This document shows, piece by piece, positions 8,195 to 62,350 of a DNA stretch of 64,000 nt. The stretch lies in contig CM027382.1 in NCBI GenBank assembly GCA_015680905.1, forward strand, positions 20,681,501-20,745,500, written 5' to 3'. The stretch's first letter is position 1. Each line of letters begins with the position of its first letter. Origin of the DNA: Coptis chinensis. Taxonomy: Eukaryota; Streptophyta; Magnoliopsida; Ranunculales; Ranunculaceae. The translations under genes were made by a program, and so were the position numbers. The notes beneath the pieces were generated by a model. The model saw only the letters and a list, made by a program, of their open reading frames with translations. It did not search any database and was not told where the DNA came from.

Positions 8195-8278
<84 letters not shown>

Positions 8279-32288: not shown

Positions 32289-35200
32289 TGTCACACCCCA
32301 AATTTCGACAGAATTCGAAAAAAACATTATTTGTTTCCGACTCTTCGATCTCCGAGGTGCGACACACTCTCCATTCCCAAAAACCCATAAACAGTTTAAA
32401 TATGCGGATAATTAAAACCAATAAAATTTTTAACTTAAACAACAGTCCTATTCATTTCAAAAATAATTTACAAATGAAAATGCAAATAACATTATCTCAA
32501 CTGAAAATCTATATCACCTCAAAGGAAAACAAGACACATCCTGAGATGCAACGCTAACGCAAACCACAAGCCGCAACCAATCTTCTTCAACATTAAACTC
32601 ATCAAAACTTATCAACTATGTTCATTGAATGAATACCCCCGATAAGCAAACATGCAAATCGGTCAAGATTATAAACAATGCTTTGTGTGAGTAGCTCTAA
32701 AATATAACATATAATTATACATGTATATACACACAATCCTACGGCGCTTAGTTCCTCCACCGAGGTACTTTTAACTTTCAACGACTAATATAACATCCTT
32801 AAGAATACTAATTAAGGCGTAGTTCCTCCTCCAATCGAGGCCTTAACTTCACACTAACCACACAACAAACTATACTCATAATAAATAAGGCATGTAGTTC
32901 CTCCATCGAGTTTTAGGTTCAACTAAACAAATAACCAACCAAACATATTATATACATTCATCTATTTAAAGATACATCATTAACCAAGATATTACCATAA
33001 TTATATTATTTCGGGCTTTCTTTGTGTGTCCCTAAAATCACGTCGTATCTATGTCTTACCTAGTTTCCCGGCTACCACAATCGCTACCCAACGCCCGAAC
33101 ATGTACATCCACATGCCTCCCCTTACATAATGAGCCACTCCGCGGCGTAACCACCCCCGAAATGGATGCCGCGACACCGTAAATCCTCACACGGAAGCCA
33201 AATCTATGTAAGCACCGCCACTATTCGCATAAAATATTATGCATCATCGCTCTATTTTTGCGAACGGAATAATCAAGCCACTATTCGGCTATTTTTTAGA
33301 GGGCCATTCAAATTTAACTCGAACGCCGGGGAGGGTCAGCCGGCCATTCAGATTAACTGAAACGCCAGGAGGGCCAATCACATGAGTTGTGGTAGTCAGG
33401 TTCTAGGATTTTCGTTATGTAATTTATTCAGGTGTCATACGTTAATGACTCATAATCATGTTCCACTATATCACGTGCAGGTCAATTACCTTATTGCACT
33501 AAGCCACTATATATAGAAACATCTCAATATATCTCATAACCATATTTCATTCTTTCACGTGCCAATATATTATTGCACTACACCACACTCCCGTGGGCAA
33601 ATATTCACCAATACTATATTAGCATCTCACATATAAAATAATGGAGTGTATATACATTTCTCCAAGATATTGCATTAATACAACTATCCCAGCATATTAT
33701 ATCATGTCACAATGCTTCAACGTATCGCATACATCTTTATTATAACGTATTAGGAATATAATGTCTCCTAACATCTCAATATCGCCACGCGTGTCAAAAA
33801 TACACAACATAAATGTCAAATCTTTCTTAGATAATGACAACCAAAGTTATACAAGCTTCCACAAAGATTTTATTACTATATGTGTCCATATAATATACAC
33901 ATAAAACGTAGCACAAATTAAATTAAACAATTCACCCACAATCAAAGCCCAATATATAAATGTTTTACACACTACTCACGTCAAATCTAAATTAGATAAT
34001 GACCAACCAAGTTATATAATATTCGACAATATTTTATTACTATATTTATCCATCTAAATCAAACATATGAAAAACTAGAAAAGTCAACATTCCACAGTCA
34101 ACGGTCAACGGTCAACGGTCAAAGGTCAACACCTCATGGTCAAGGTCAAACTCAACATGTCATGGTCAAAGCCAAACTGTCATGGTCAAAGTCAAAGGTG
34201 AAAGTCAACCGTCCATGATCAAAGGTCAAAGTCAACCATCAAAGTCAACGGTCGATGGTCAAAGTCAAACTGTCCTAGTCAAAGTCAAACTGTCGTTTTC
34301 GTGTTCGACAGGTTCATGGTCATAGCCATGGTTCATGGCTAAGGTCAAAGGTGCATGGCTCATGGGCTCGTGACTAAGGTCATGGTTCGGACCCAACTGG
34401 CCAAGCCCAAACCTTAGAACCCGGAAGTCTAAAAGTCCACTTATTAATTCTACCTGACCCAATTGGGATCTATATTAAATTATATGGACTGGCCCAAGCA
34501 ATATCAGAAACGGGCCCAAAAACTGTTAAGTTAAACTGGTCCACAAACTTTAATTTAAACTGGCCCAAACTAAACATATAGAAAAATGGCCCAACCACTT
34601 AAAACAAAACCGGCCCAACAAAATAATAGAATCCGGCCCACATAAAACCAAAAGGGTTAGGCCCAAAGCCCAAGCCCAAATCGAAATGGTCATCTTCCTC
34701 ACCCATTTCTCCTCCTCCAGCAGCCACCGAATTTTCCGGCCACCACTCCCATTCCCTCAAGTCGGTTCGACTCCAAATGAAAAACCCAACAACATTAATG
34801 AAAACTAAAACCTCAAATCCTTACATCCCAACATCACCAAACTAGATCTGAAAATCGTTTGGGCCACCATTAAAGCTTGTTACAAGCTTAAATCGACAGC
34901 CCCACACAAACCCAACATTCAATCCGACCTCACAACCTAACCTCAACCAAACAAAGCAAAACAAAGACAAACCAATTACACCAAAAAACAGCCCAACCCC
35001 AAGAGGCTTTCAAGAATGGCGTTTCGCGCCCATGGACGCCTCCCTCAAGGCTTCACGCCTCTACTCGACCCTCGCCGGTCCAACACTCCACCACGATCCA
35101 AACATCACAACAAAAAGTAAATCAAAACAACCGATTTCGTTTCTTTTTTTGTTGTCTGGCGACGCCATTAGTGCCGAAAAGACCTAATTCCACACTATTC

Positions 35201-35922
35201 CCATACCACCACAAGATCACAAGATTTCAATACAGAGAAAGATTTATTGCTTTGAGGCTTTAGCCAAGAACAACCCGATAAGCCTCGACAGTTTTAATTA
35301 AGGATTCCCACGCCAATAAAACAAAAAGGTACCGAATTTAAAAAATACATAAGTAGAAAACTGGATGGAAAATCGGCAAAGAAAGGTTTTGTGTTCACGC
35401 AGTAAAACTCTAGTTTCGATATAAAAATAAAACGTAACTACTCACCTCGTGTTATCTCGGAAACAGAAAAATATCAAGAACAATGAGAGAACCAATCCCA
35501 AATAGCTCGAAAAAAATCCGGCGTTCTTCTCCGTTTTAGGCTTGTGTGTGTTGTTTGTGGTTTTAAAACAAGTTTCTCCGGAGACACTCTATATTCTCCT
35601 TAACTTCCAAATTACTAAATATTCTTATATCCTAATTATGGAAATATTATTTCTATTAAAAGGATTATATATAGGTTACTTAGGTTAATACCTTGTTTCC
35701 TTTTTATTTAAAGCTTTCCAAAAATGAAAGATACACTATCCATATTCAAAATTCAAATGCTAGTTTCCTATATTAACATTATACGAAATTTCTATTTAGT
35801 ATTCCCTCCTTAACTATTTGGTATTCCACATGCTAGCACGTTGACCAGAAAAATACAGTCAAATACAGAAAATATTAAATATTGTTACGCAAATAATGTA
35901 AATATAAAATAGGGGTCTTACA
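32289..35922 (-). repeat. Array LTR 1 (outermost 3' LTR)
   Basis: 3634 bp. The low-coordinate end tgtcacacccc is the only array terminus on that side with the canonical TG; it borders the left target duplication attca. It contains three 'agttcctcc(a)...cgagg' words (near 32752, 32820 and 32894), the W-box-like cluster at 34084-34290 and a C-rich part at 34660-35100. Confidence 0.85.
34084..34290 (-). promoter_or_regulatory. Dense W-box-like TTGAC cluster in LTR 1
   Basis: On the element strand, 19 copies of TTGAC followed by C or T (TTGACC or TTGACT) occur in about 207 bp; on the + strand they read ggtcaa or agtcaa. TTGACY is the core W-box bound by WRKY factors. Equivalent clusters lie in LTR 2 (about 39057-39265), LTR 3 (44005-44228), LTR 4 (48969-49200), LTR 5 (53957-54178) and LTR 6 (58922-59126). 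The cluster is about 1.6-1.8 kb into the LTR from its start, a plausible U3 position. The regulatory role is inferred. Confidence 0.45.
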
Positions 35923-36346
35923 GCTATACACATCTCAAAAGAATCTCGTCCCGAGATTCGGAAGTAAAGCTATACGAACAAAACGTTGGTTATTAACTTA
36001 GAACCTATACAAGAATGCACGTTGATTAAACTTAAACAAGATAACATTGGTATTAATTATTTTAATTAATTCCAGAATATACGTCCTCATGCCATTACAA
36101 AATCTATCATAGTTTAACTGTCTATATTAAAACAAATTATTACTGTCACTTAAATGCACGATAAATATATCATATCTTTTTAGTATGCAATTTCCTGATA
36201 CACTTAAAAATAAAAATCACTCATGTCATTGATACTACCATAAAACTTTATATTTACTTTAGTCATGCTATCGAAAAATTAAATTTAAAACAACCCTTGA
36301 ATCCTAATTCATGCTTGCAACTGGTCAAATATAACACGTATCAAAA

Positions 36347-36382
<36 letters not shown>

Positions 36383-37263
36383 TCATCTATCAAAATCATA
36401 TAGAACTGAAACAAAACAATTCAGAATAAATACTTTAATATGCAAAAATCATGTGAAACTAATTTAACGATATTAATCAATCATATAATAGTTCACCTAT
36501 ACGGTAATAGTTCACCTATATACAATAATATAAAAACGCATGTATACACGCATGTATACACATCTCAAAAGAATACACGTGTATAATGCTAGTATACACA
36601 TCTCAAAAAGAATACACGTATATTTTATTTTATTATTCAGTCTATTTCTAACTAATCACCTCTAACAGATTAATCTCTTATACTTAAAAAATACTATTCA
36701 TCCATTACAATGTACGAGTGAGGCGAGATAGTTCCTCCAATACCGAGGCAATTAGTTCCTTACTCAGTACGTCACAAAGCCATCAGATAATACAACTCAT
36801 TCAATATAGATTAAAATATCTCCTTGTTTCTTGAATAATAACATAACACTCAAATACAAAGTTCACCGACAGGTTATCGCACTTAATCCATAACCCAGGT
36901 GAAAATGATCACCAACAATAAAACAATACTACCTAAGCAAAGACACCATTTTGATCAAACCCGTTAATAATTAACATATAATAAATGTAACTACTCCTCA
37001 TACGATAAGGAAACAAAAAAATCATTTCATATGCACTCCACAAGAGTAACTAATATAAATATACACATTACACATACAATCCAATCAAGAAAAATATTGA
37101 CTCTCTTTATTTCTATATCTCTTTCATTTTTCTTTGTAAAAGTAAAACAACTAGCGGAAATAGTTTTGAAAATAATACCTTTTAAACACTACCCATAAAC
37201 TACGATCCGAGAATCACCTAGACTCACCTAAGTCTAAGCTAACCAAATGCTCTGATACCAAAC
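35923..37263 (-). repeat. Array internal segment 1
   Basis: 1341 bp without coding potential. The element-strand 5' end has the primer site (37249-37260). The 3' end has aatctcgggacgagatt (about 35944-35960) before the LTR start. It holds a T30 run (36351-36380) and direct repeats of acacatctcaaaa with gaatacacgt (about 36557-36620). Confidence 0.8.
37249..37260 (-). promoter_or_regulatory. tRNA-iMet primer binding site, internal segment 1
   Basis: Element strand TGGTATCAGAGC, three bases from the LTR end; the classic initiator-Met primer site. Confidence 0.85.
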
Positions 37264-40200
37264 TATCACACCCTGAATTTAGACAGAATTCGAAAAAACA
37301 TTATTTGTTTCCGACTCTTCGATCTCCCGAGGTGTACGACACTCTCCATTCCCAAAACCCATAAACAGTTTAAATATCGCGGATAATTAAAACCAATAAA
37401 ATTTTTAACTTAAACAACAAATTCTATTCATTTCAAAAATAATTTACAAATGAAAATGCAAATAACATTATCTCAACTCGAAAAATCTATATCACCTCAA
37501 AGGAAAACAAGACACATCCCGAGATGCAACGCTAACGAAACCACAAGCCGCGAACCAATCTTCTTCAACATTAAACCTGTCAAAACTTATCAACTATGTT
37601 CATTGAATGAACACCCCCGAGATAAGCAAACATGCAAATCGGGTCAACATTATAAAATCTTTGGTGTGAGTAGCTCTAAAATATAACATATAATTATACA
37701 TGTATATACACAATCCCTACTACGGCTTAGTTCCTCCAATCGAGGCTTTTAACTTTCAACGACTAATATAACATCCTTAAGAATACTAATTAAGGCGGGT
37801 AGTTCCTCCAATCGAGGCTTTAACTTCACACTAACCACACAACAAACTATACTCATAATAAATAAGGCATGTAATTCCTCCATCGAGGCTTTTAGGTTCA
37901 ACTAAACAAATAACCAACCAAACATATTATATACATTCATCTATTTAAAGATACATCATTAACCAAGATATTACCATAATTATTTATTTCAGGGCTTTCT
38001 TTGTGTGTCCCTAAAATCACGTCAGATCTATGTCTTACCTAGTTTCCCTGGCTACCACAATCGCTACCCAACGCCGAACATGTACATCCACATGCCTCCC
38101 TTACATAATGAGCCACTCGCGTGCGTAACCACCTCGAAATGGATGCCGCGACACCGTAAAATCCTCACACGGAAGCCAAATCTATGTAAGCACCGCCACT
38201 ATTCGCATAAAATATTATGCGCATCATCGCTTCTATTTTCTTAACGGAATAATCAAGCCACTATTCGGGCTCGCCGGAGAGGGCCATTCAAATTTTAACT
38301 GAACGCCAGAGGGCCAAGGCCCATTCAAATTAACTGAAACGCCGGAGGAGGGCCAATCACATGAGTTGTGGTAGTCGGTTCTAGGATTTTCGTTATTATG
38401 TAATTTATTCAGTGTCATAATGCGTTAATGACTCATAATCATGTTCCACTATATCATCGTGCGGTCAATTACCTTATTGCACTAAGCCACTATATATAGA
38501 AACATCTCAATATATCTCATAACCATATTTCATTCTTTCACGTACCAATATATTATTGACTACACCACACTCCCCAAAAAATATTCACCAATACTATATT
38601 AGCATCTCACATATAAAATAATGGAGTGTATATACATTTCTCCAAGATATTGCATTAATACAACTATCCCAGCATATTATATCATGTCACAATGCTTCAA
38701 CGTATCGCATACATCTTTATTATAACGTATTAGGAATATAATGTCTCCTAACATCTCAATATCGTCACGTGTCAAAAATACACAACATAAATGTCAAATC
38801 TTTCTTAGATAATGACAACCAAAGTTATACAAGCTTCCACAGCATTTTATTACTATATGTGTCCATATAATATACACATAAAACGTAGCACAAATTAAAC
38901 AGTTCACAGTCCACAATCAAAGCCCAATATATAAATGTTTTACACACTACTCACGTCAAATCTAAATTAGATAATGACCAACCAAGTTATATAATATTCG
39001 ACAATATTTTATTACTATATTTATCCATCTAAATCAAACATATGAAAAACTAGAAAAGTCAACATTCCACAGTCAACGGTCAACGGTCAACGGTCAAAGG
39101 TCAACACCTCATGGTCAAGGTCAAACTCAACATGTCATGGTCAAAGCCAAACTGTCATGGTCAAAGTCAAAGGTGAAAGTCAACCGTCCATGGTCAAAGG
39201 TCAAAGTCAACCATCAAAGTCAACGGTCGGGTCAAAGTCAAACCGTCTAGTCAAAGTCAAACTGTCGTTTTGCGTGTTCGACAAATCATCATGGTCATAG
39301 CCATGGTTCATGGCTAAGGTCAAAGTGTATGGCTCATGGGCTCGTGGACTAAGGTCATGGTTCGGACCAGAAACTGCCAAGCCCAAACCTTAGAACCCTA
39401 AGTCTAAAAGTCCACTTATTAATTCTACCTTGACCCAATTGGGATCTATATTAAATTATATGGATCGCCCAAAACAATATCGAACGGGCCCAAAAATCGT
39501 TAAGTTAAACCGGTCCACAAACTTTAATTTAAACCGCCCAAACTAAACATATAGAAAAATGGCCCAACCACTTAAAACAAAACCGCCCAACAAAATAATA
39601 GAAAATCCCACATAAAACCAAAACCAAACTAAATTAGCCCAAAGCCCAAGCCCAAATCGAAATGGTCATCTTCCTCACCCATTTCTCCTCCTCCTCCGAA
39701 ACCCACCGAATTTTCCGCCACCACTCCCCATTCCCTCAAGTCGGTTCGACTCCAAATGAAAACCCAACAACATTAATGAAAACTAAAACCTCAAATCCTT
39801 ACATCCCAACATCACCAAACTAGATCTGAAAATCGTTTGGGCCACCATTAAAGCTTGTTACAAGCTTAAATCGACCCCCCACAAACCCAACATTCAATCC
39901 GGCTCACAACCTAACCTCAACCCAACAAAGCAAAACAAAGACAACCAATTACACCAAAACAGCCCAACCCCAAGTAGCTCTCAAGAATGGCGTTCGCGCC
40001 ATGGACGCCGCCCCAAGGCTTCATCGCCTCTACTCGACCCTCTCAAAGAACAACACCACCACCACAGATCCAAACATCACAACAAAAAGTAAATCAAAAC
40101 AACCGGATTTCGTTCTCTTTTTATTGTCTCTGGCGACGCCATTAGTGCCGAAAGACCGAAACCAATTCACACTATTCCCATACCACCACAAGATCACAAG

Positions 40201-40898
40201 TATTTCAATACAGAGAAAGATTTATTGCTTTGAGGCTTTAGTCACAAGAACAACCCGATAAGCCTCGACAACTTTAATTAAGGATTCCCAACAATTTCAA
40301 TAAAACAAAAAGGTACCCGAAAAAAATACATAAGTAGAAAAAACGGATGGAAAATCGGCAATAAAGGTTTTTGTGTTCACGCCAAAAAACTCTAGTTTCG
40401 ATATAAAAAATAAAACGTAACTACTCACCTCGTGTTATCTAAAACGAAAAAATATCGAAGAACAATGAGAGAACCAATCCCACTAGCTCGAAAAATCCTC
40501 CTCTTCTTCTCTTTTAGGCTTGTGTGTGTTGTTTGTGGTTTTAAAACAAGTTTCTCCTGAGACACTCTATATTCTCCTTAACTTCCAAATTACTAAATAT
40601 TCTTATATCCTAATTATGGAAATATTATTTCTATTAAAAGGATTATATATAGGTTACTTAGGTTAATAAATTGTTTCCTTTTTATTTAAAGCTTTCCAAA
40701 AATGAAAGATACACTATCCATATTCAAAATTCAAATGCTAGTTTCCTATATTAACATTATAAGAAATTTCTATTTAGTATTCCTCCTTAACTATTTGGTA
40801 TTCCACATGCTAGCACGTTGACCATTAAATACAAACCTATACAGAAAATATTAAATATTGTTAAACAAAATAATGTAAATATAAAATAGGGTCTTAAA
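37264..40898 (-). repeat. Array LTR 2
   Basis: About 3635 bp. The PBS-side terminus reads tatcacacc instead of tgtcacacc; the other end reads gtcttaaa where other copies have gtcttaca. Many local differences from LTR 1 sit in C/G-rich words (for example at 39470-39660). Confidence 0.8.
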
Positions 40899-42217
40899 TA
40901 TACACATCTTCAAAAGAATCTCGTCCCGAGATTCGAAGTAAAGCTATACTTAACAAAACGTTGGTTATTAACTTAGAACCTATACAAGAATGCACGCTGA
41001 TTAAACTTAAACAAGATAACATTGGTATTAATTATTTTAATTAATTCCAGAATATACGCCCTCATGCCATTAAATCAAAATCTATCATAGTTTAACTGTC
41101 TATATTAAAACAAATTATTATGTCACTTTCATGCACATAAATATATCATATCTTTTTAGCATGCAATTTCCTCGATACACTTAAAAAAAAAAAATCACTC
41201 ATGTCATTGATACTACCATAAAACTTTATATTTACTTTAGTCATGCTATCGAAAAAATTAAATTTAAAACAACCCTTGAATCCTAATTCATGCTTGCAAC
41301 CTGGTCAAATATAACACGATCAAAAATGATTTTTTTTTTTTTTTTTTTTCATATTCATCTATCAAAATCATATAGACTGAAACAAAACAATTCAGAATAA
41401 ATACTCGAATATGCAAAAATCATGTGAAACTAATTTAACGATATTAATCAATCATATACGCACGGTAATAGTTCACCTATATACAATAATATAAAAACGT
41501 GTATACGCATGTATACACATCTCAAAAAGAATACACGTGTATACGCAAGTATACACATCTCAAAAAGAATACACGTATATTTTATTTTATTATTCAGTCT
41601 ATTTCTAACTAATCACCTCTAACAGATTAATCTCTTATACTTAAAAAATACTATTCATCCATTACAATGTACGAGTGAGGCGAGATAGTTCCTCCAATAC
41701 CGAGGCAATTAGTTCCTTACTCAGTACGTCACAAAGTCATCAGTTAATGCAGCTCATTCAATATAGATTAAAATATCTCCTTGTTTCTTGAATAATAACA
41801 TAACACTCAAATACAAAGTTCACCGACAGGTTATCGCACTTAATCCATAACCCATGTGAAAATGATCACCAACAATAAAACAATACTACAAGAAAGAAGA
41901 TTCATTTTGATCAAACCCGTTAATAATTAACATATAATAAATGTAACTACTCCTCATAATGATAAGGAAACAAAAATCATTTCATATGCACTCCACAAGA
42001 GTAACTAATATAAATATACACATTACACATACAATCCAATCAAGAAAAAATATTGACTCTCTTTATTTCTATATCTCTTTCATTTTTCTTTGTAAAAAAA
42101 AACAACTAAATGAAATAGTTTTGAAAATAATACCTTTTAAACACTACCCATAAACTACGATCCGAGAATCACCTAGACTCACCTAAGTCTAAGCTAACCA
42201 AATGCTCGATACCAAAC
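40899..42217 (-). repeat. Array internal segment 2
   Basis: About 1319 bp, non-coding. T20 run at 41330-41349. The primer site at 42204-42214 has lost one base (gctcgatacca on the + strand). The sequence before the primer site is otherwise the same as in the other copies. Confidence 0.8.
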
Positions 42218-45200
42218 TATCACACCTCAATTTCGACAATTCAAAAAACATTATTTGTTTCCGACTCTTCGATCTCCGAGGTGCGACACTTCCATTCCCA
42301 AAACCCATAAACAGTTTTAAAATATGCGGATAATTAAAACCAATAAAATTTTTAACTTAAACAACAGTCCTATTCATTTCAAAAATAATTTACAAATGAA
42401 AATGCAAATAACATTATCTCAACTGAAAATCTATATCACCTCAAAGGAAAACAAGACACATCCTGAGATGCAACGCTAACGCAAACCACAAGCCGCAACC
42501 AATCTTCTTCAACATTAAACCTGTCAAAACTTATCAACTATGTTCATTGAATGAACACCCCCGAGCAAGCAAACATGCAAATCGGGTCACATTATAAACA
42601 ATGCCAAAGTGAGTAGCTAGCTCTAAAATATAACATATAATTATACACATATATATACACAATCCCTACGCAGCTTAGTTCCTCCACCGAAAGCCTTTAA
42701 CTTTCAACGACTAATATAACATCCTTAAGAATACTAATTAAGGCGGTAGTTCCTCCACCGAGGCTTTTAACTTCACACTAACCACACAACAAACTATACT
42801 CATAATAAATAAGGCATGTAATTCCTCCATCGAGGCTTTAGGTTCAACTAAACAAATAACCAACCAAACATATTATATACATTCATCTATTTAAAGATAC
42901 ATCATTAACCAAGATATTACCATAATTATATTATTTCGCTTTTCTTTGCGTGTCCCTAAAATCACGTCAGATCTCATGTCTTTACCTAGTTTCCGCTACC
43001 ACAATCGCTACCCAACGCCGAACATGTACATCCACATGCCTCCCTTACATAATGAGCCACTCCGCGATGCGTAACCACCCCCGAGCGGGATGCCGCGACA
43101 CCGTAAATCCTCACACGGAAGCCAAATCTATGTAAGACCGCCACTATTCGGCATAAAATATTATGCATCATCGCTCTATTTTGCGAACGGAATAATCAAG
43201 CCACTATTCGGCTATTATTTGAGGCCATTCAAATTTTAATTAAATGCCGAGGGCCGGTCAAGGCGCCATTCAACTTAACTCAAACGCCGGAGGGCCAATC
43301 ACATGAGTTGTGGTAGTCGTTCTGTGGATTTTCGTTATGTAATTTATTCAGTGTCATACATTAATGACTTATAATCATGTTCCAATATATCAATGCGTCG
43401 CGGTCAATTACCTTATTGCACTAAGCCACTATATATAGAAACATCTCAATATATCTCATAACCATATTTCATTCTTTCACGTGCCAATATATTATATTGC
43501 ACTACACCACACTAGGCAAATATTCACCAATACTATATTAGCATCTCACATATAAAATAATGGAGTGTATATACATTTCTCCAAGATATTGCATTAATAC
43601 AACTATCACAAAGATATTATATCATGTCACAATGCTTCAACGTGATCGCATACATATTTATTATAAACGTATTAGGAATATAATGTCTCCTAACATCTCA
43701 ATATCGTCACCACGGTCAAAAATACACAACATAAATGTCAAATCTTTCTTAGATAATGACAACCAAAGTTATACAAGCTTCCACAAAGATTTTATTACTA
43801 TATGTGTCCATATAATATACACATAAAACGTAGAAAGACAAATTAAACGGTTCATGAATCCACAATCAAAGCCCAATATATAAATGTTTTACACACTACT
43901 CACGTCAAATCTAAATTAGATAATGACCAACCAAGTTATATAATATTCGACAATATTTTATTATTATATTTATCCATCTAAATCAAACATATGAAAAACT
44001 AGAAAAGTCAACATTCCACAGTCAACGGTCAACGGTCAACGGTCAACGGTCAAAGGTCAACACCTCATGGTCAAGGTCAAACTCAACATGTCATGGTCAA
44101 AGCCAAACTGTCATGGTCAAAGTCAAAGGTGAAAGTCAACCGTCCATGGTCAAAGGTCAAAGTCAACCATCAAAGTCAACGGTCGATGGTCAAAGTCAAA
44201 CAAATCCTAGTCAAAGTCAAAGTCAAACCGTTTTAACGTTTCCATTCGACGGGTTCATGGTCATAGCCATGGTTCATGGCTAAGGTCAAAGGTGCATGGC
44301 TCATGGGCTCGTGACTAAGGTCATGGTTCGGACCAATCGAACCCAAGAAGCCCAAACCTTAGAACCCTAAGTCTAAAAAGTCCACTTATTAATTCTACCT
44401 CCGACCCAATTGGGATCTATATTAAATTATATGGACCGCCCAAGCAATATCGAAAAGGGCCAAAAACCGTTAAGTTAAAACCGGTCCACAAACTTTAATT
44501 TAAACCGCCCAAACTAAACATATAGAAAAATGGCCCAACCACTTAAAACAAAACCGGCCCAACAAAATAATAGAATCCGGCCCACATAAAACCAAAAGGG
44601 TTAGGCCCAAAGCCCAAGCCCAAATCGAAATGGTCATCTTCCTCACCCATTTCTCCTCCTCCAAAGAGCCCACCCCAATTTTCCGCCACCACTCCCATTC
44701 CCTCAAGTCGGTTCGACTCCAAATGAAAAACCCAACAACATTAATGAAAACTAAAACCTCAAATCCTTACATCCCAACATCACCAAACTAGATCTGAAAA
44801 TCGTTTGGGCCACCATTAAAGCTTGTTACAAGCTTAAATCGACAGCCCCACACAAACCCAACATTCAATCCGACCTCACAACCTAACCTCAACCCAACAA
44901 AGCAAAACAGCACAACCAATTACACCAAAAACAGCCCAACCCTGGCTTTCGTTGTTAATGGCCATGGACGCCCTCAAAGGCTTCACTGCCCCTACTCGAC
45001 CCTCAAAAAATCCAACACTCCACCACATGATCCAAACATCACAACAAAAAGTAAATCAAAACAACCGGATTTCGTTCTCTTTTTTTATTGTCTCCGACGC
45101 CATTAGTGCCGAAGACACCGACCCACACTATTCCCATACCACCACAAGATCACAAGATTTCAATACAGAGAAAGATTTATTGCTTTGAGGCTTTAGCCGC

Positions 45201-45856
45201 CAGAAAAACAACCCGATAAGCCTCGGCAGGTTTAATTAAGGATTCCCACGGTTTTCAATAAAACAAAAAGGTACCCAAATTAAAATACATAAGTAGAAAA
45301 CCGGATGGAAAATCGGCAAGAAAGGTTTTGTGTTCACGCCAGAAAACTCTAGTTTCGATATAAAAAATAAAACGTAACTACTCACCTCGTGTTATCGGAA
45401 ACGTAAAAATATCAAGAACAATGAGAGAACCAATCCCATGAGCTCGAAAAATCCGCGTTCTTCTCCGTTTTAGGCTTGTGTGTGTTGTTTGTGGTTTTAA
45501 AACAAGTTTCTCCGGAGACACTCTATATTCTCCTTAACTTCCAAATTACTAAATATTCTTATATCCTAATTATGGAAATATTATTTCTATTAAAAGGATT
45601 ATATATAGGTTACTTAGGTTAATACCTTGTTTCCTTTTTATTTAAAGCTTTCCAAAAATGAAAGATACACTATCCATATTCAAAATTCAAATGCTAGTTT
45701 CCTATATTAACATTATACGAAATTTCTATTTAGTATTCCCTCCTTAACTATTTGGTATTCCACATGCTAGCACGTTGACCAGAAAAATACAGTCAAATAC
45801 AGAAAATATTAAATATTGTTACGCAAATAATGTAAATATAAAATAGGGGTCTTATA
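42218..45856 (-). repeat. Array LTR 3
   Basis: 3639 bp, tatcacacc to cttata. Long AT-rich stretches such as 45540-45720 are the same as in the other LTRs. Confidence 0.8.
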
Positions 45857-47184: not shown

Positions 47185-50100
47185 TATCACACCCCGAATT
47201 TCGACAGAATTGAAAAACATTATTTGTTTCCGACTCTTCGATCTCCGAGGTGTGACGCACTCTCCACTCCCAAAAACCCATAAACAGTTTAAATATGCGG
47301 ATAATTAAAACCAATAAAATTTTTAACTTAAACAACAGTCCTATTCATTTCAAAAATAATTTACAAATGAAAATGCAAATAACATTATCTCAACTGAAAA
47401 TCTATATCACCTCAAAGGAAAACAAGACACATCCTGAGATGCAACGCTAACGCAAACCACAAGCCGCAACCAATCTTCTTCAACATTAAACCTGTCAAAA
47501 CTTATCAACTATGTTCATTGAATGAACACCCCGATAAAACAAACATGCAAAATCGGGTTGACATTATAAACAATCTTTGGTGTGAGTAGCTCTAAAAATA
47601 TAACATATAATTATACATGTATATATACACAATCCCTACGGCAGTTAGTTCCTCCACCGAGGCGCCTTAACTTTCAACGACTAATATAACATCCTTAAGA
47701 ATACTAATTAAGGCAGGTAGTTCCTCCACTGAGGCGCCTTAACTTCACACTAACCACACAACAAACTATACTCATAATAAATAAGGCATGTAGTTCCTCC
47801 ATCGAGGCGCCTTAGGTTCAACTAAACAAATAACCAACCAAACATATTATATACATTCATCTATTTAAAGATACATCATTAACCAAGATATTACCATAAT
47901 TATATTATTTCAGGCTTTCTTTGCGTGTCCCTAAAATCACGTCGTATCTATGTCTTACCTAGTTTCCCTGGCTACCACAATCGCTAACCCAACGCCGACA
48001 TGTACATCCACATGCCTCCCTTTACATAATGAGCCACTCGTGCGTAACCACCTTGAGCCGATGCCGCGACACCGTAAATCCTCACACGGAAGCCAAATCT
48101 ATGTAAGCACCGCCACTATTCGGCATAAAATATTATGCGATCATCGTTATATTTTGCGAACGGAATAATCAAGCACTATTCGACTTTCGCCGGAGGGGCC
48201 ATTCAGCTTTTAACTAAAACGCCGGGGGGCGCCCCGGCCATTCAAATTAAGCGCCGGAGGGCCAATCACATGAGTTATGGTAGTCGGGTTAGGATTTTCG
48301 TTATGTAATTTATTCGAGTGTCATACGTTAATGACTTATAATCATGTTCCACTATATCACGTCAAGGTGTCAATTACCTTATTGCACTAAGCCACTATAT
48401 ATAGAAACATCTCAATATATCTCATAACCATATTTCATTCTTTCACGTGCAATATATATTATTGCACTACACCACACAGGTGAAATAAAATATTCACCAA
48501 TACTATATTAGCATCTCACATATAAAATAATGGAGTGTATATACATTTCTCCAAGATATTGCATTAATACAACTATCCCAAAGATATTATATCATGTCAC
48601 AATGCTTCAACGTGTCGCATACATTTTTATTATAACGTATTAGGAATATAATGTCTCCTAACATCTCAATATCGTCACGTGTCAAAAATACACAACATAA
48701 ATGTCAAATCTTTCTTAGATAATGACAACCAAAGTTATACAAGCTTCCACAGCATTTTATTACTATATGTGTCCATATAATATACACATAAAACGTACAA
48801 CAAATTAACCATTTCAAAGTCCACAATCAAAGCCCAATATATAAATGTTTTACACACTACTCTACGCGTCAAATCTAAATTAGATAATGACCAACCAAGT
48901 TATATAATATTAAACAATATTTTATTACTATATTTATCCATCTAAATCAAACATATGAAAAACTAGAAAAGTCAACATTCCACGGTCGGCGGTCAAATCG
49001 GTCAACGGTCAATCGGTCAAAGGTCAACACCTCATGGTCAAGGTCAAACTCAACATGTCATGGTCAAAGCCAAACTGTCATGGTCAAAGTCAAAGGTGAA
49101 AGTCAACCGTCCATGGTCAAAGTCCATGGTCAAAGGTCAAAGTCAACCATCAAAGTCAACGGTCGATGGTCAAAGTCAAACCTGTCCTAGTCAAAGTCAA
49201 ACTGCCGCTGTTCGACAAGTTCATGGTCATAGCCATGGTTCATGGCTAAGGTCAAAGGTGCATGGCTCGTGGGCTCGTGACTAAGGTCATGGTTCGGACC
49301 CAAACCGCCAAGCCCAAAACCTTAGAACCCTAAAGTCTAAAAGTCCACTTATTAATTCTACCCACCCAATTGGGATCTATATTAAATTATATGGGTTTTC
49401 CGCCCAAAAATATAATATCGGGGTAAAATTAAAACCGGCCCAAAACTGTTAAGTTAAACTCCGGTCCACAAACTTTAATTTAAACCGCCCAAAACTAAAC
49501 ATATAGAAAAATGGCCCAAACCACTTAAAACAAAACCGCCCAAAAAATAATAGAAATCCGCCCCCACATAAAACCAAAAGGGTTAGGCCCAAAGCCCAAG
49601 CCCAAATCGAAATGGTCATCTTCCTCACCCATTTCTCCTCCTCCAAAGAACCCACCAGAATTTTCTCGGCCACCACTCCCATTCCCTCAAGTCGGTTCGA
49701 CTCCAAATGAAAAACCCAACAACATTAATGAAAACTAAAACCTCAAATCCTTACATCCCAACATCACCAAACTAGATCTGAAAATCGTTTGGGCCACCAT
49801 TAAAGCTTGTTACAAGCTTAAATCGACAGCCCCACACAAACCCAACATTCAATCCGACCTCACAACCTAACCTCAACCCAACAAAGCAAAACAGCACAAC
49901 CAATTACACCAAAAACAGCCCAACCCCAGTAGCTCAGTAATGGCGTTCGGCGCCATGGACGCCTCCCTCAAGGCTTCACTGCCCCTACTCGACCCTCAGC
50001 AGTCCAACACTCCACCACAGATCCAAACATCACAACAAAAAGTAAATCAAAACAACCGGATTTCGTTCTCTTTTTATTGTCTCGGGGCGACGCCATTAGT

Positions 50101-50847
50101 GCCGACAGCACCGACCCACACTATTCCCATACCACCACAGTATCACAGTATTTCAATACAGAGAAAGATTTATTGCTTTGAGGCTTTAGCCACAAGAATA
50201 ACCCGATAAGCCTCGGCGATGTTTAATTAAGGATTCCCACGTTTTTCAATAAAACAAAAAGGTACCGAAAAAAATACATAAGTAGAAAACGGATGGAAAA
50301 TCGGCAAAAAGGTTTTGTGTTCACGCCAGAAAACTCTAGTTTCGATATAAAAATAAAAAACGTAACTACTCACCTCGTGTTATCGGAAACAAAAATATCG
50401 AAGAACAATGAGAGAACTAATCCCATCCTAGCTCGAAAAATCCGCGTTCTTCTCCGTTTTTAGGCTTGTGTGTGTTGTTTGTGGTTTTAAAACAAGTTTC
50501 TCCTGGAGACACTCTATATTCTCCTTAACTTCCAAATTACTAAATATTCTTATATCCTAATTATGGAAATATTATTTCTATTAAAAGGATTATATATAGG
50601 TTACTTAGGTTAATACCTTGTTTCCTTTTTATTTAAAGCTTTCCAAAAATGAAAGATACACTATCCATATTCAAAATTCAAATGCTAGTTTCCTATATTA
50701 ACATTATCTGAAATTTCTATTTAGTATTCCCTCCTTAACTATTTGGTATTCCACATGCTAGCACGTTGACCCGAAAAATCTGATCAAATACGAAAATATT
50801 AAATATTGTTACGCAAAATAATGTAAATATAAAATAGGGGTCTTACA
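47185..50847 (-). repeat. Array LTR 4
   Basis: 3663 bp, the longest copy. Extra bases lie at C/G-rich places, most clearly at 49390-49445 where the copy reads gggttttccgcccaaaaata in place of the usual short ggaccgccc-like word. Confidence 0.8.
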
Positions 50848-51273
50848 AATATACATTATCTCAAAAAGAATCTCGTCCCTAGATTAGAAGTAAAGCTATC
50901 TGAACAAAACGTTGGTTATTAACTTAGAACCTATACAAGAATGCACGTTGATTAAACTTAAACAAGATAACATTGGTATTAATTATTTTAATTAATTCCA
51001 GAATATACGCCCCTCATGCCATTACAAAATCTATCATAGTTTAACTGTCTATATTAAAACAAATTATTACTGTCAAACATAAATGCACGATAAATATATC
51101 ATATCTTTTTAGCATGCAATTTCACGATACACTTAAAAAATAAAAATCACTCATGTCATTGATACTACCATAAAACTTTATATTTACTTTAGTCATGCTA
51201 TCGAAAAATTAAATTTAAAACAACCCTTGAATCCTAATTCATGCTTGCAACGGGTCAAATATAACACGTATTA

Positions 51274-51305
<32 letters not shown>

Positions 51306-52175
51306 CATATTCATCTATCAAAATCATATAGATCAAACAAAACAATTCAGAATAAATACTTTCGAATATGCAAAAATCATGTGAAACTAATTTAACGATA
51401 TTAATCAATCATATACGCATACGGTAATAGTTCACCTATATACAATAATATAAAAACGTGTATACGCATGTATACACATCTCAAAAGAATACACGTGTAT
51501 ACATCTAAGTATACACATCTCAAAAAGAATACACGATATTTTATTTTATTATTCAGTCTATTTCTAACTAATCACCTCTAACAGTTAATCTCTTATACTT
51601 AAAAATACTATTCATCCATTACAATGTACGAGTGGTGAGATAGTTCCTCCAATACCGAGGCAATTAGTTCCTTACTCAAGATCGTCACAAAGTCATCGAT
51701 TAATGCACTCATTCAATATAGATTAAAATATCTCCTTGTTTCTTGAATAATAACATAACACTCAAATACAAAGTTCACCGACAGGTTATCGCACTTAATC
51801 CATAACCCATGTGAAAATGATCACCAACAATAAAACAATACTACCGCAGCACAGCTCATTTTGATCAAACCCATTAATAATTAACATATAATAAATGTAA
51901 CTACTCCTCATAATGATAATAGGAAACAAAAAATCATTTCATATGCACTCCACAAGAGTAACTAATATAAATATACACATTACACATACAATCCAATCAA
52001 GAAAAATATTGACTCTCTTTATTTCTATATCTCTTTCATTTTTCTTTGTAAAAGTAAAACAACTAGCGGAAATAGTTTTGAAAATAATACCTTTTAAACA
52101 CTACCCATAAACTACGATCCGAGAATCACCTAGACTCACCTAAGTCTAAGCTAACCAAATGCTCTGATACCAAAC
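50848..52175 (-). repeat. Array internal segment 4
   Basis: 1328 bp, non-coding. T28 run at 51278-51305; primer site at 52161-52172. The 3' end motif is altered to agaatctcgtccctagatta. Confidence 0.8.
52161..52172 (-). promoter_or_regulatory. tRNA-iMet primer binding site, internal segment 4
   Basis: Element strand TGGTATCAGAGC, intact. Confidence 0.85.
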
Positions 52176-55100
52176 TATCACACCCCGAATTTCGACAGAA
52201 TTCGAAAAAACATTATTTGTTTCCGACTCTTCGATCTCCGAGGTGCGACACACTCTCCATTCCCAAAAACCCATAAACAGTTTAAATATGCGGATAATTA
52301 AAACCAATAAAATTTTTAACTTAAACAACAGTCCTATTCATTTCAAAAATAATTTACAAATGAAAATGCAAATAACATTATCTCAACTGAAAATCTATAT
52401 CACCTCAAAGGAAAACAAGACACATCCTGAGATGCAACGCTAACGCAAACCACAAGCCGCAACCAATCTTCTTCAACATTAAACCTGTCAAAACTTATCA
52501 ACTATGTTCATTGAATGAACACCCCCGATAAGCAAACATGCAAATCGGGTCAGCATTATAAACAATGCTGGTGTGAGTAGCTCTAAAATATAACATATAA
52601 TTATACATGTATATACACAATCCCTACGGCAGTTAGTTCCTCCACCGAGGCGCCTTAACTTTCAACGACTAATATAACATCCTTAAGAATACTAATTAAG
52701 GCAGGTAGTTCCTCCACTGAGGCGCCTTAACTTCACACTAACCACACAACAAACTATACTCATAATAAATAAGGCATGTAATTCCTCCATCGAGGCGCCT
52801 TAGGTTCAACTAAACAAATAACCAACCAAACATATTATATACATTCATCTATTTAAAGATACATCATTAACCAAGATATTACCATAATTATATTATTTTG
52901 ACTTTTCTTTGCGTGTCCCTAAAATCACGTCAGATCTATGTCTTACCTAGTTTCCCCGGCTACCACAATCGCCAACCAACCGAACATGTACATCCACATG
53001 CCTCCCTTTACATAATGAGCCACTCCGATGCGTAATCCACCTCGAAATGGATGCCGCGACACCGTAAATCCTCACACGGAAGCCAAATCTATGTAAGCAC
53101 CGCCACTATTCGCATAAAAATATTATGCATCATCGTTCTATTTTGCGAGCGGAATAATCAAGCCAATTATTCGGCTCGCCCGGAGGGCCATTCAAATTTT
53201 AATCAAATGCCGGAGGGTCACCGCGAAGGCCATTCAGTTTAACCAAACGCCGGAGGGGCCAATCACATGAGTTGTGGTAGTCGTTCTCTAGATTTTCGTT
53301 ATGTAATTTATTCAGTGTCATACATTAATAACTTATAATCATGTTCCAATATATCACGCGTGTCAATTACCTTATTGCACTAAGCCACTATATATAGAAA
53401 CATCTCAATATATCTCATAACCATATTTCATTCTTTCACGTACAATATATTATTGCACTACACCACACTCCCGTGGGCAAATATTCACCAATACTATATT
53501 AGCATCTCACATATAAAATAATGGAGTGTATATACATTTCTCCAAGATATTGCATTAATACAACTATCACAGCATATTATATCATGTCACAATGCTTCAA
53601 CGTATCGCATACATATTTATTATAACGTATTAGGAATATAATGTCTCCTAACATCTCAATATCGTCACGTGTCAAAAATACACAACATAAATGTCAAATC
53701 TTTCTTAGATAATGACAACCAAAGTTATACAAGCTTCCACAAAGATTTTATTACTATATGTGTCCATATAATATACACATAAAACGTAGCACAAATTAAA
53801 CAGTTCACAGTCCACAATCAAAGCCCAATATATAAATGTTTTACACACTACTCACGTCAAATCTAAATTAGATAATGACCAACCAAGTTATATAATATTC
53901 GACAATATTTTATTATTATATTTATCCATCTAAATCAAACATATGAAAAACTAGAAAAGTCAACATTCCACAAAGCCAATCAACAATCAAACGGTCAACG
54001 GTCAAAGGTCAACACCTCATGGTCAAGGTCAAACTCAACATGTCATGGTCAAAGCCAAACCGTCATGGTCAAAGTCAAAGGTGAAAGTCAACCGTCCATG
54101 GTCAAAGGTCAAAGTCAACCATCAAAAGTCAAACTATCGATGGTCAAAGTCAAACTGCAGTCTAGTCAAAGTCAAACCGTCGTTTTAAGTGTTCGACAAG
54201 TTCATGGTCATAGCCATGGTTCATGGCTAAGGTCAAAGGTGCATGGCTCATGGGCTCGCGTGACTAAGGTCATGGTTCGGACCTAACCGCCAAGCCCAAA
54301 CCTTAGAACCCTAAGTCTAAAAAGTCCACTTATTAATTTTAAGTCCAAATGGATTGGGATCTATATTAAATTATATGGACAAAAACCCAAGCAATATCGA
54401 AACGGACTCCCAAAACTTTCAAAGTTAAACCGGTCCACAAACTTTAATTTAAACCGCCCAAACTAAACATATAGAAAAAATGGCCCAACCACTTAAAACA
54501 AAAACCGCCAACAACAAAATAATAGAATCCGCCCACATAAAACCAAAAGGGTTAGGCCCAAAGCCCAACCAAATCGAAATGGTCATCTTCCTCACCCATT
54601 TCTCCTCCTCCAAGAAACCACCGAATTTTTCCGCCACCACTCCCATTCCCCTCAAGTCTGGTTCGACTCCAAATGAAAACCCAACAACATTAATGAAAAC
54701 TAAAACCTCAAATCCTTACATCCCAACATCACCAAACTAGATCTGAAAATCGTTTGGGCCACCATTAAAGCTTGTTACAAGCTTAAATCGACAAATCCCC
54801 CACACAAACCCAACATTCAATCCGACCTCACAACCTAACCTCAACCCAACAAAGCAAAAATAAAAAGAAAACCAATTACACCAAAACAGCCCAAACCCCA
54901 AAGAGCTCAAGAATGGCGTTACGCCATGGGCGCTCCCCTCAAGGCTTCATCGCCCCTACTTTCGACCCTCAGCCATCCAACAACCCACCACCATATCCAA
55001 ACATCACAACAAAAGTAAATCAAAACAACCGATTTCGTTCTCTTTTTTATTGTCTCGGCGACGCCATTAGTGCCAAAAGACCGACCCACACTATTCCCAT

Positions 55101-55820
55101 ACCACCACAGTATCACAGTATTTCAATACAGAGAAAGATTTATTGCTTTGAGGCTTTAGCCGCCAGTAACAACCCGATAAGCCTCGACAGTTTAATTAAG
55201 GATTCCCACAGTTTTCAATAAAACAAAAAGGTACCGACAGAAAATACATAAGTAGAAAACTGGATGGAAAATCGGCAGTAAAGGTTTTTGTGTTCACGCG
55301 TAAAACTCTAGTTTCGATATAAAAATAAAAACGTAACTACTCACCTCGTGTTATCGGAAACAGAAAAATATCGAAGAACAATGAGAGAACCAATCCCAGC
55401 TAGCTCGAAAAATCCGCGTTCTTCTCCGTTTTAGGCTTGTGTGTGTTGTTTGTGGTTTTAAAACAAGTTTCTCCGGAGACACTCTATATTCTCCTTAACT
55501 TCCAAATTACTAAATATTCTTATATCCTAATTATGGAAATATTATTTCTATTAAAAGGATTATATATAGGTTACTTAGGTTAATACCTTGTTTCCTTTTT
55601 ATTTAAAGCTTTCCAAAAATGAAAGATACACTATCCATATTCAAAATTCAAATGCTAGTTTCCTATATTAACATTATACGAAATTTCTATTTAGTATTCC
55701 CTCCTTAACTATTTGGTATTCCACATGCTAGCACGTTGACCAGAAAAAATACTGATCAAAATACAGAAAATATTAAATATTGTTACGCTAAATAATGTAA
55801 ATATAAAATAGGGTCTTATA
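52176..55820 (-). repeat. Array LTR 5
   Basis: 3645 bp, tatcacacc to cttata. The W-box-like cluster is partly changed (caaagccaatcaacaatcaa near 53970-53990). Confidence 0.8.
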
Positions 55821-57139
55821 GCTATACATTCTCAAAAGAATCTCGGCCCCAGATTAAGTAAAAATATCTTAACAAAACGTTGGTTATTAACTTAGAACCT
55901 ATACAAGAATGCACGTTGATTAAACTTAAACAAGATAACATTGGTATTAATTATTTTAATTAATTCCAGAATATACGCCCTCATGCCATTACAAAATCTA
56001 TCATAGTTTAACTGCCTATATTAAAACAAATTATTATCAAAAACTTAAATGCAGCACGATTAAATATATCATATCTTTTAGCATGCAATTTCATCGATAC
56101 ACTTAAAAATAAAAATCACTCATGTCATTGATACTACCATAAAACTTTATATTTACTTTAGTCATGCTATCGAGAAAAATTAAATTTAAAACAACCCTTG
56201 AATCCTAATTCATGCTTGCAACCAAAATATAACACGTATCAAAAATGATTTTTTTTTTTTTTTTTATTCATCTATCAAAATCATATAGAATCATGAAACA
56301 AAAAACAATTCAGAATAAATACTTCGATATATGCAAAAATCATGTGAAACTAATTTAACGATATTAATCAATCATATACGCACGGTAATAGTTCACCTAT
56401 ATACAATAATATAAAAACGTGTATACGCATGTATACACATCTCAAAAAGAATACACGTGTATACGCAAGTATACACATCTCAAAAAGAATACACGTATAT
56501 TTTATTTTATTATTCAAAAGAATTTCTAACTAATCACCTCTAACAGATTAATCTCTTATACTTAAAAAATACTATTCATCCATTACAATGTACGAGTGAG
56601 GCGAGATAGTTCCTCCAATACCGAGGCAATTAGTTCCTTACTCAGTACGTCACAAAGTCATCAGTTAATGCAGCTCATTCAATATAGATTAAAATATCTC
56701 CTTGTTTCTTGAATAATAACATAACACTCAAATACAAAGTTCACCGACAGGTTATCGCACTTAATCCATAACCCATGTGAAAATGATCACCAACAATAAA
56801 ACAATACTACCGCAGCACAGCTCATTTTGATCAAACCCGTTAATAATTAACATATAATAAATGTAACTACTCCTCATACGATAAGGAAACAAAAAAATCA
56901 TTTCATATGCACTCCACAAGAGTAACTAATATAAATATACACATTACACATACAATCCAATCAAGAAAAATATTGACTCTCTTTATTTCTATATCTCTTT
57001 CATTTTTCTTTGTAAAAGTAAAACAACTAGCGGAAATAGTTTTGAAAATAATACCTTTTAAACACTACCCATAAACTACGATCCGAGAATCACCTAGACT
57101 CACCTAAGTCTAAGCTAACCAAATGCTCTGATACCAAAC
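55821..57139 (-). repeat. Array internal segment 5
   Basis: About 1319 bp, non-coding. T17 run at 56249-56265, the shortest of the five; primer site at 57125-57136. The 3' end motif is altered to agaatctcggccccagatta. Confidence 0.8.
57125..57136 (-). promoter_or_regulatory. tRNA-iMet primer binding site, internal segment 5
   Basis: Element strand TGGTATCAGAGC, intact. It belongs with the outermost 5' LTR (LTR 6). Confidence 0.85.
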
Positions 57140-60100
57140 TATCACACCCCGAATTTCGACAGAATTCGAAAAAACATTATTTGTTTCCGACTCTTCGATC
57201 TCCGAGGTGCGACACACTCTCCATTCCCAAAACCCATAAAACGTTTAAATATGCGGATAATTAAAACCAATAAAATTTTTAACTTAAAACAACAGTCCTA
57301 TTCATTTCAAAAATAATTTACAAATGAAAATGCAAATAACATTATCTCAACTGAAAATCTATATCACCTCAAAGGAAAACAAGACACATCCTGAGATGCA
57401 ACGCTAACGCAAACCACAAGCCGCAACCAATCTTCTTCAACATTAAACCTGTCAAAACTTATCAACTATGTTCATTGAATGAACACCCCCGATAAGCAAA
57501 CATGCAAATCGGGTCAGCATTATAAACAATGCTGGTGTGAGTAGCTCTAAAATATAACATATAATTATACATGTATATACACAATCCCTACGGCAGTTAG
57601 TTCCTCCACCGAGGCACTTTAACTTTCAAATCCTAATATAACATCCTTAAGAATACTAATTAAGGCGGGTAGTTCCTCCACCGAGCGCCTTTAACTTCAC
57701 ACTAACCACACAACAAACTATACTCATAATAAATAAGGCATGTAATTCCTCCATCGAGGCTTTTAGGTTCAACTAAACAAATAACCAACCAAACATATTA
57801 TATACATTCATCTATTTAAAGATACATCATTAACCAAGATATTACCATAATTATATTATTTCGGGCTTTCTTTGCGTGTCCCTAAAATCACGTCAGATCT
57901 ATGTCTTACCTAGTTTCCCCGGCTACCACAATCGCTACCCAACGCCGAACATGTACATCCACATGCCTCCCTTACATAATGAGCCACTCCGCGGCGTAAC
58001 CACCTTGAGCGGGATGCCGCGACACCGTAAATCCTCACACGGAAGCCAAATCTATGTAAGCACCGCCACTATTCGGCATAAAATATTAGCGTCATCGCTC
58101 TATTTTGCGAACGGAATAATCAAGCCACTATTCGGCTACCGGAGAGGCCATTCAAAATTTAACTAAAACGCCAGAGGGTCAGCCGAAGGCCATTCAAATT
58201 TTAACTCAAACGCCGGGGGCCAATCACACGAAAGTTATGGTAGTCGCTCTAGGATTTTCGTTATGAAATTTATTCAGTGTCATAATTAATGACTCATAAT
58301 CATGTTCCACTATATCACGTCCAGGTCAATCAATTACCTTATTGCACTAAGCCACTATATATAGAAACATCTCAATATATCTCATAACCATATTTCATTC
58401 TTTCACGTGCCAATATATTATTGCACTACACCACACTCCCGTGGGCAAATATTCACCAATACTATATTAGCATCTCACATATAAAATAATGGAGTGTATA
58501 TACATTTCTCCAAGATATTGCATTAATACAACTATCCCAGCATATTATATCATGTCACAATGCTTCAACGTATCGCATACATCTTTATTATAACGTATTA
58601 GGAATATAATGTCTCCTAACATCTCAATATCGTCACGTGTCAAAAATACACAACATAAATGTCAAATCTTTCTTAGATAATGACAACCAAAGTTATACAA
58701 GCTTCCACAGCATTTTATTACTATATGTGTCCATATAATATACACATAAAACGTAGCACAAATTAAAATGCTCATTCCCACAATCAAAGCCCAATATATA
58801 AATGTTTTACACACTACTCACGTCAAATCTAAATTAGATAATGACCAACCAAGTTATATAATATTCGACAATATTTTATTACTATATTTATCCATCTAAA
58901 TCAAACATATGAAAAACTAGAAAAGTCAACATTCCACAGTCAACGGTCAACGGTCAACGGTCAACGGTCAAAGGTCAACACCTCATGGTCAAGGTCAAAC
59001 TCAACATGTCATGGTCAAAGCCAAACTGTCATGGTCAAAGTCAAAGGTGAAAGTCAACCGTCCATGGTCAAAGGTCAAAGTCAACCATCAAAGTCAACGG
59101 TCGATGGTCAAAGTCAAAGTCAAACTGTCGTTTTCGTGTTCGACAGGTTCATGGTCATAGCCATGGTTCATGGCTAAGGTCAAAGGTGCATGGCTCATGG
59201 GCTCGTGACTAAGGTCATGGTTCGGACCCAACTGGCCAAGCCCAAACCTTAGAACCCGGAAGTCTAAAAGTCCACTTATTAATTCTACCTGACCCAATTG
59301 GGATCTATATTAAATTATATAGACTGGCCCAAGCAATATCAGAAACGGGCCCAAAAACTGTTAAGTTAAACTGGTCCACAAACTTTAATTTAAACTGCCC
59401 AAACTAAACATATAGAAAAATGGCCCAACCACTTAAAACAAAACCGCCCAACAAAATAATAGAATCCGCCCACATAAAACCAAAGGGTTAGGCCCAAAGC
59501 CCCAAGCCCAAATCGAAATGGTCATCTTCCTCACCCATTTCTCCTCCTCCAAAGAAATTCCCACCGAATTTTCCGGCACCACTCCCATTCCCCTCAAGTC
59601 GGTTCGACTCCAAATGAAAAACCAACAACATTAATGAAAACTAAAACCTCAAATCCTTACATCCCAACATCACCAAACTAGATCTGAAAAATCGTTTGGG
59701 CCACCATTAAAGCTTGTTACAAGCTTAAATCGACAAAATTCCCACACAAACCCAACATTCAATCCGACCTCACAACCTAACCTCAACCCAACAAAGCAAA
59801 ACAAAGACAACCAATTACACCAAAAACAGCCCAACCCCAAAGAGCTTCAAGAATGGCGCTTCGGGCCCATGGACGCCTCCCTCAAGGCTTCACTGCCCCC
59901 TACTCGACCCTCAGCAGTCCAACACTCCACCACAGATCCAAACATCACAACAAAAAGTAAATCAAAACAACCGGATTTCGTTCTCTTTTTATTGTCTCGG
60001 GGCGACGCCATTAGTGCCGACAGCACCGACCCACACTATTCCCATACCACCACAGTATCACAGTATTTCAATACAGAGAAAGATTTATTGCTTTGAGGCT

Positions 60101-60764
60101 TTAGCCGCCAGTAACAACCCGATAAGCCTCGACAGTTTAATTAAGGATTCCCACAGTTTTCAATAAAACAAAAAGGTACCGACAGAAAATACATAAGTAG
60201 AAAACTGGATGGAAAATCGGCAGTAAAGGTTTTTGTGTTCACGCGTAAAACTCTAGTTTCGATATAAAAATAAAAACGTAACTACTCACCTCGTGTTATC
60301 TAAAACGTAAAAAATATCGAAGAACAATGAGAGAACCAATCCCAAATTAGCTCGAAAAATCCACGCGTTCTTCTCCGCTTTAGGCTTTGTGTGTTGTTTG
60401 TGGTTTTAAAACAAGTTTCTCCGAGACACTCTATATTCTCCTTAACTTCCAAATTACTAAATATTCTTATATCCTAATTATGGAAATATTATTTCTATTA
60501 AAAGGATTATATATAGGTTACTTAGGTTAATACCTTGTTTCCTTTTTATTTAAAGCTTTCCAAAAATGAAAGATACACTATCCATATTCAAAATTCAAAT
60601 GCTAGTTTCCTATATTAACATTATACGAAATTTCTATTTAGTATTCCCTCCTTAACTATTTGGTATTCCACATGCTAGCACGTTGACCAGAAAAATACAG
60701 TCAAATACAGAAAATATTAAATATTGTTACGCAAATAATGTAAATATAAAATAGGGGTCTTACA
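57140..60764 (-). repeat. Array LTR 6 (outermost 5' LTR)
   Basis: 3625 bp. On the element strand it starts TGTAAGACCCCTATTTTATA at 60764, next to the right target duplication attca (60765-60769). In several C/G-rich words (cgacaggttcatgg, cccaactggcc, gaacccggaag) it agrees with LTR 1 and not with LTRs 2-5. Confidence 0.85.
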
Positions 60765-62215: not shown

Positions 62216-62350
62216 TATTGTGGCTGTTGTATCCTGGAGGTTGGTGTGTGTGTGGACCCTCATAAATGGTCTGCATGGAATTATCTGATCCTCCTATTCT
62301 GGGGCTTCGTTGGACCAATTATGGGCAGTGAGACTTCCAACTCGATGGCA

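Follow-up and report, generated by a model that had tools for sequence, protein, structure and literature searches.

A six-LTR tandem array of a non-coding LTR retrotransposon within one target-site duplication in Coptis chinensis

Introduction

Tandem arrays of LTR retrotransposons (LTR-RTs) have been described from several plants. In rice Nipponbare, 28 clear arrays were reported, all with coding domains and with the Tekay lineage in excess, and perfect 5-nt duplications flank 10 of the 28; tandem structures number 11 in Arabidopsis, 11 in almond and 130 in cotton (PMC11899658). Among the Wukong TRIMs of maize, 2 of 89 intact elements contain six and seven LTRs, for which unequal crossing over was suggested (PMC4528315). 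Cassandra forms tandem arrays of up to 12 repeats (PMC7215508), and barley BARE1 has been credited with at least 4600 three-LTR structures (cited in PMC7215508). In maize, full-length CRM1TR monomers number 97 at one locus, with an average of 696 nt, and 90 at another, with an average of 819 nt (PMC3648361).

Here, we describe an array of six LTRs and five internal segments in Coptis chinensis. Like the arrays of rice, Arabidopsis, almond and cotton, it alternates LTRs with internal segments, has an LTR at both ends and carries one 5-nt duplication, the pattern of a single insertion (PMC11899658). However, the 28 clear rice cases are coding and the two presented in detail have three LTRs, whereas the Coptis array has six LTRs and 1.3-kb internal segments that lack ORFs of 100 aa. 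A first-pass annotation of the locus had called an array of this unit size with a preserved duplication unusual, a view that the 10 perfect 5-nt duplications among the coding rice arrays do not support. In its non-coding unit and many LTRs the array resembles Wukong, but TRIMs are small by definition (PMC4528315), while the Coptis unit measures ~5 kb and its LTRs 3.6 kb. Cassandra also forms non-coding LTR-internal arrays, but its LTRs are short and contain 5S rRNA sequence (PMC7215508), compared to 3.6 kb in Coptis, where an Rfam scan of the window (the whole 64-kb stretch of DNA that was analysed) gave no 5S match. CRM1TR and CRM4TR are likewise tandem repeats from retrotransposon sequence, CRM4TR deriving from an LTR-UTR segment, but they consist of short, satellite-like monomers (PMC3648361), whereas the Coptis array consists of whole units inside the original insertion. 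Long LTRs and a non-coding internal segment are also shared with the LARDs, or large non-coding LTR retrotransposons (named in PMC7215508). Among the open-access titles that our searches listed, none concerned a tandem array built from a non-coding unit with LTRs as long as 3.6 kb.

Results

Comparison of the window with itself gave five long direct alignments, with offsets at multiples of ~4.97 kb and an array period of 4,954-4,991 bp. The array spans 28.5 kb (32289-60764). In it, six LTRs (3,625-3,663 bp) alternate head to tail with five internal segments (1,318-1,341 bp), all in a single orientation and with an LTR at either end; these counts describe the assembly. LTRs make up 73% of the repeated unit of ~5 kb. 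The coordinates, copy numbers and common orientation given in the first-pass annotation are thereby borne out. The features, in window coordinates, are as follows.

32284-32288, no strand: target-site duplication, left, ATTCA, 5 bp
32289-35922, minus: LTR1, the 3' LTR of the element, 3634 bp
35923-37263, minus: internal segment 1, 1341 bp, no ORF of 100 aa; TGGTATCAGAGC near 37260 (minus)
37264-40899, minus: LTR2, 3636 bp
40900-42217, minus: internal segment 2, 1318 bp
42218-45856, minus: LTR3, 3639 bp; three isolated substitutions in common with LTR5
45857-47184, minus: internal segment 3, 1328 bp
47185-50847, minus: LTR4, 3663 bp
50848-52175, minus: internal segment 4, 1328 bp
52176-55821, minus: LTR5, 3646 bp
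55822-57139, minus: internal segment 5, 1318 bp
57140-60764, minus: LTR6, the 5' LTR of the element, 3625 bp
60765-60769, no strand: target-site duplication, right, ATTCA, 5 bp

The same five bases lie immediately outside both ends (ATTCA, TGTCACACCCC ... GGGGTCTTACA, ATTCA), just as had been noticed at first pass, and the outer flanks are otherwise distinct. By simple arithmetic, identity over 5 bp at two fixed points has a chance of 1 in 1024. Within the array, LTRs and internal segments abut directly, with neither host sequence nor an extra duplication between units, and we therefore reject the nested insertion of separate elements. A lone duplication at the outer ends and the absence of host DNA between units point to a single integration, which supports the earlier reading of an LTR-sharing array from one insertion.

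The remainder of the window contains other repeats. To the left of the array, three repeat pairs (7686-9407 with 19065-20679, 16080-17646 with 24285-25836, and 17650-18784 with 26128-27241; two inverted, one direct; 79-94% alike) form a nest of broken elements, and minus-strand gag/protease regions of LTR retrotransposons at 12943-15565 and 21336-23630 are broken into several short ORFs. A borderline Rfam match to plant snoR71 (23458-23561; 40.4 bits, cut-off 40) sits on the strand opposite to a Retrotrans_gag ORF (23304-23630) and is probably due to chance or derived from a repeat. To the right, a 116-bp unit occurs in two tandem copies with 93% matches (62350-62578).

The element reads on the minus strand, since that strand carries TGGTATCAGAGC, the usual plant primer site of the initiator-methionine tRNA (tRNA-iMet) type, 3 nt inward from the LTR end. 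The site is intact in four of the five internal segments and lacks one base in the fifth. On the minus strand the LTR begins with TGTAAGACCCC and finishes with TGTGACA, and clean TG...CA termini are found at both outer ends of the array, at some inner ends and in the single relatives described below. The TG/CA outer ends, the primer site and the 5-bp duplication together uphold the initial assignment to the LTR retrotransposons. At the inner ends, the U3 side is irregular in three of five cases (copies 2, 3 and 5), and the LTR ends on the primer-binding-site (PBS) side read TATCACA instead of TGTCACA in copies 2-6. We considered whether the common TATCACA of LTR2-6 arose by mutation in the founding 5' LTR and spread from there, and dropped the idea: relatives A and B also deviate on the PBS side, so this end is no marker of unit spread. 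No clear purine run that could serve as a polypurine tract precedes the 3' LTR, where the stretch is conserved in relative A.

None of the five internal segments contains an ORF of 100 aa with an ATG, GTG or TTG start. The sole such ORF in the array, of 102 aa, lies in LTR5 and matched nothing in Pfam at E 0.01. By ORFs of at least 100 aa, the internal segment thus has no coding capacity, as in LARDs, while an LTR of 3.6 kb and a unit of ~5 kb set the element apart from TRIMs with their small size and short LTRs. Known LARDs have internal segments longer than the 1.3 kb of the Coptis array. The element was presumably mobilised by the proteins of another element.

Searching the genome (936 Mb, 116 contigs) with the LTR as query gave at least 75 matches when the best 40 of 7136 first-look candidates were scored. 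They fall at the array, where five of the six LTRs were named and LTR4 was missed, and at no fewer than 34 other places, seven of which are described here: four single LTR-internal-LTR elements, two solo LTRs and one rearranged locus. Perfect 5-bp duplications (TSDs) flank all four single elements and both solo LTRs.

C8:20640971-20649966: relative A (L011/L019), single LTR-internal-LTR, TSD ATAAC
C8:7687758-7696582: relative B, single LTR-internal-LTR, TSD TGTAT
C6:21518812-21527538: relative C, single LTR-internal-LTR, TSD CAACC
C4:24425403-24434129: relative D, single LTR-internal-LTR, TSD GGGAT
C5:85147405-85150940: solo LTR, 3536 bp, duplication CATTC
C2:16808059-16811499: solo LTR, 3441 bp, duplication AAGCC
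C8:8191301-8200300: L021, rearranged; the piece of same-family LTR and internal segment that comes after an LTR is inverted

Since single elements and solo LTRs have 5-bp duplications of their own, the repeated unit is a whole, ordinary, dispersed short element. From their translations, the surroundings of the solo LTRs read as LINE-like and copia-like. The U5-side half of the array's LTR is common to B, C, D, both solo LTRs and L021, and its internal segment to B, C, D and L021. All six differ from the array in U3 type, with TGTAACGCCC where the end was read, which makes B, C, D and the solo LTRs sister subfamilies of the array. Among the seven relatives, only A matches the array in U3 type. 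The U3 part of A is 93% alike to the array LTR (0.67% different from LTR1 in clean columns, those away from clumped differences), and its U5-side half only 80-82%; because A is close in U3 and distant on the U5 side, either A or the array is a recombinant between subfamilies. The first-pass annotation had proposed searching the genome for single copies and for other arrays of the family. The single copies exist, as four elements and two solo LTRs, but a second array was absent from the best 40 of the 7136 candidates found with the LTR query, which also missed the array's own LTR4. The accompanying suggestion of a satellite-like repeat in the making is not borne out among these candidates.

Raw substitution differences amount to 4.2-7.9% among the LTRs and 2.6-5.0% among the internal segments, and they are strongly clumped. 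The LTR alignment has 821 variable columns, 86% of which adjoin another variable column, and its longest invariant run is 110 columns. In 12 simulations with equal numbers of substitutions and indels placed at random, a mean of 61% of variable columns were adjacent (maximum 65%), no invariant run exceeded 30 and variable columns averaged 1210. Isolated substitutions occupy 12 columns of the LTR alignment and 4 of the internal one. The simulations gave a mean of 17 such LTR columns and never fewer than 12, so that the observed LTR count sits at their lower limit and would not discriminate by itself. Clumping also occurs in the LTR pairs of A, B and D and in two unrelated repeat pairs of the window (54-77% adjacent).

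Variation also depends on sequence context. In the LTRs, it affects 41% of CG positions, 53% of CHG, 18% of CHH and 12% of A/T, and A/T variation falls from 37% beside CG/CHG to 3% at a distance of 16 bases or more. The internal segments are also highly variable at CG (37%) and CHG (33%), and their A/T variation falls from 26% to about 5% with no further drop with distance. In clean columns, differences are 0.07-0.59% in the LTRs (mean 0.34%) and 0.13-0.26% in the internal segments (mean 0.21%), values that are lower bounds because fast-mutating sites are omitted.

A tree of the copies was abandoned, as the 67 informative LTR columns split into 17 groupings, and alleles, including complex ones, recur across many different groups of copies. 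Of the five isolated informative LTR sites, three join LTR3 with LTR5 (columns 2018, 2330 and 2606), and the others join LTR1 with LTR2 and LTR1 with LTR4. The sharing between LTR3 and LTR5 hints at a two-unit exchange or conversion. For the prediction that inner LTRs are hybrids, with a U5 side like LTR6 and a U3 side like LTR1, private variants were few (7 and 4 clumps), and in several copies they were concentrated in the final third.

Discussion

Dating the array by its raw divergence is unsafe, given that the differences are clumped, enriched at CG/CHG and nearly equal in transitions and transversions. The copies differ by 3-8%, most of which is probably uncorrected long-read consensus error, and such errors probably sit at methylated cytosines. 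We infer this from the clumping, the CG/CHG enrichment, the lack of a tree and the near-equality of transitions and transversions (437 against 401 in the LTRs and 80 against 62 in the internal segments); in bacterial data, nanopore base-calling is reported to leave errors in the consensus at methylated motifs (PMC6591954, PMC10687267). Alternatively, the array could be old and its 3-8% divergence real, concentrated at hypermutable methylated cytosines. Such an array would show the observed enrichment at CG and CHG and would have C>T and G>A as its commonest substitution types, which they are in both alignments; it also speaks for this reading that in the two unrelated repeat pairs of the window transitions exceed transversions somewhat more (32 to 21 and 60 to 49) and isolated substitutions are more numerous, as real divergence would be expected to produce. 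However, deamination gives transitions, and the LTRs have almost as many transversions, as well as 160 insertion events and 119 deletion events. The long invariant runs, unmatched in the simulations, and the recurrence of complex alleles without a tree also weigh against an old array, which we regard as quite improbable. Since the clean columns differ by just 0.2-0.3% on average, the array is probably young and its expansion recent.

As to its formation, we think it likely that one LTR-retrotransposon insertion grew by repeated unequal LTR-LTR recombination into six LTRs and five internal segments, a mechanism already proposed for such arrays (PMC11899658). One element would first have inserted, creating the outer ATTCA duplication, and misaligned exchange between the LTRs of sister chromatids or homologues would then have added whole units, one product gaining units and the other losing them, down to a solo LTR, with the outer duplication left intact. 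With no more than a doubling per exchange, at least three would take the array from one internal segment to five. In favor of recombination, a single duplication encloses units with no host sequence between them, the array's unit exists alone elsewhere (A, B, C and D), solo LTRs, the reciprocal kind of product, are present in the wider family, and the sites that join LTR3 with LTR5 are such as an exchange or conversion over two units could produce. Against it, the locus is known only in its six-LTR form from one assembly, the solo LTRs and B, C and D are of a different U3 type, and the conflicting groupings of informative columns yield no history of the copies. An identical single outer duplication would also result if a concatemer formed first, either as a multi-unit cDNA or by read-through transcription of a one-LTR circle, and integrase inserted the whole array; this has been proposed for Cassandra (PMC7215508) and for the rice arrays, whose authors hold recombination and concatemer insertion both possible (PMC11899658). 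The similar clean-column differences in LTRs and internal segments, as if the units were of about one age, fit a concatemer as well. On the other hand, as much as 28.5 kb would have to be packaged or transcribed in one molecule, the intact relatives examined are single elements in four of four cases, and the sharing between LTR3 and LTR5 would require a later event, and we consider this origin unlikely. The unit number might instead be an assembly artefact, the array having been expanded or collapsed and a noisy consensus making its copies look distinct. The strong consensus-error signature is consistent with this, as are the few isolated substitutions that separate the copies, yet these substitutions do distinguish copies, three of them join LTR3 and LTR5 in a way unlike the simple repetition of one unit, and the outer flanks are distinct while carrying the same duplication. 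Although neither the copy-distinguishing sites nor the flanks fix the unit number, an artefact seems rather improbable to us.

Repeated unequal recombination could, in a more speculative and rather doubtful extension, represent the very young and still ongoing birth of a satellite, with a short non-coding element of unusually long LTRs turning its insertion into an array whose unit number would vary within the species. The sharing between LTR3 and LTR5 would then preserve the trace of an exchange over two units (10 kb) and mark the onset of a higher-order repeat.

Altogether, the array is real as assembled and is well explained by known processes; what is new is that its 3-8% divergence between copies should not be taken as age. 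It provides a clean non-coding case, with single and solo forms of the wider family in the same genome, of structures whose origin the literature still leaves open between recombination and the insertion of a concatemer (PMC11899658). It also carries a warning: in some repeat-rich assemblies, sequencing error may account for most of the LTR divergence that usually serves as a clock.
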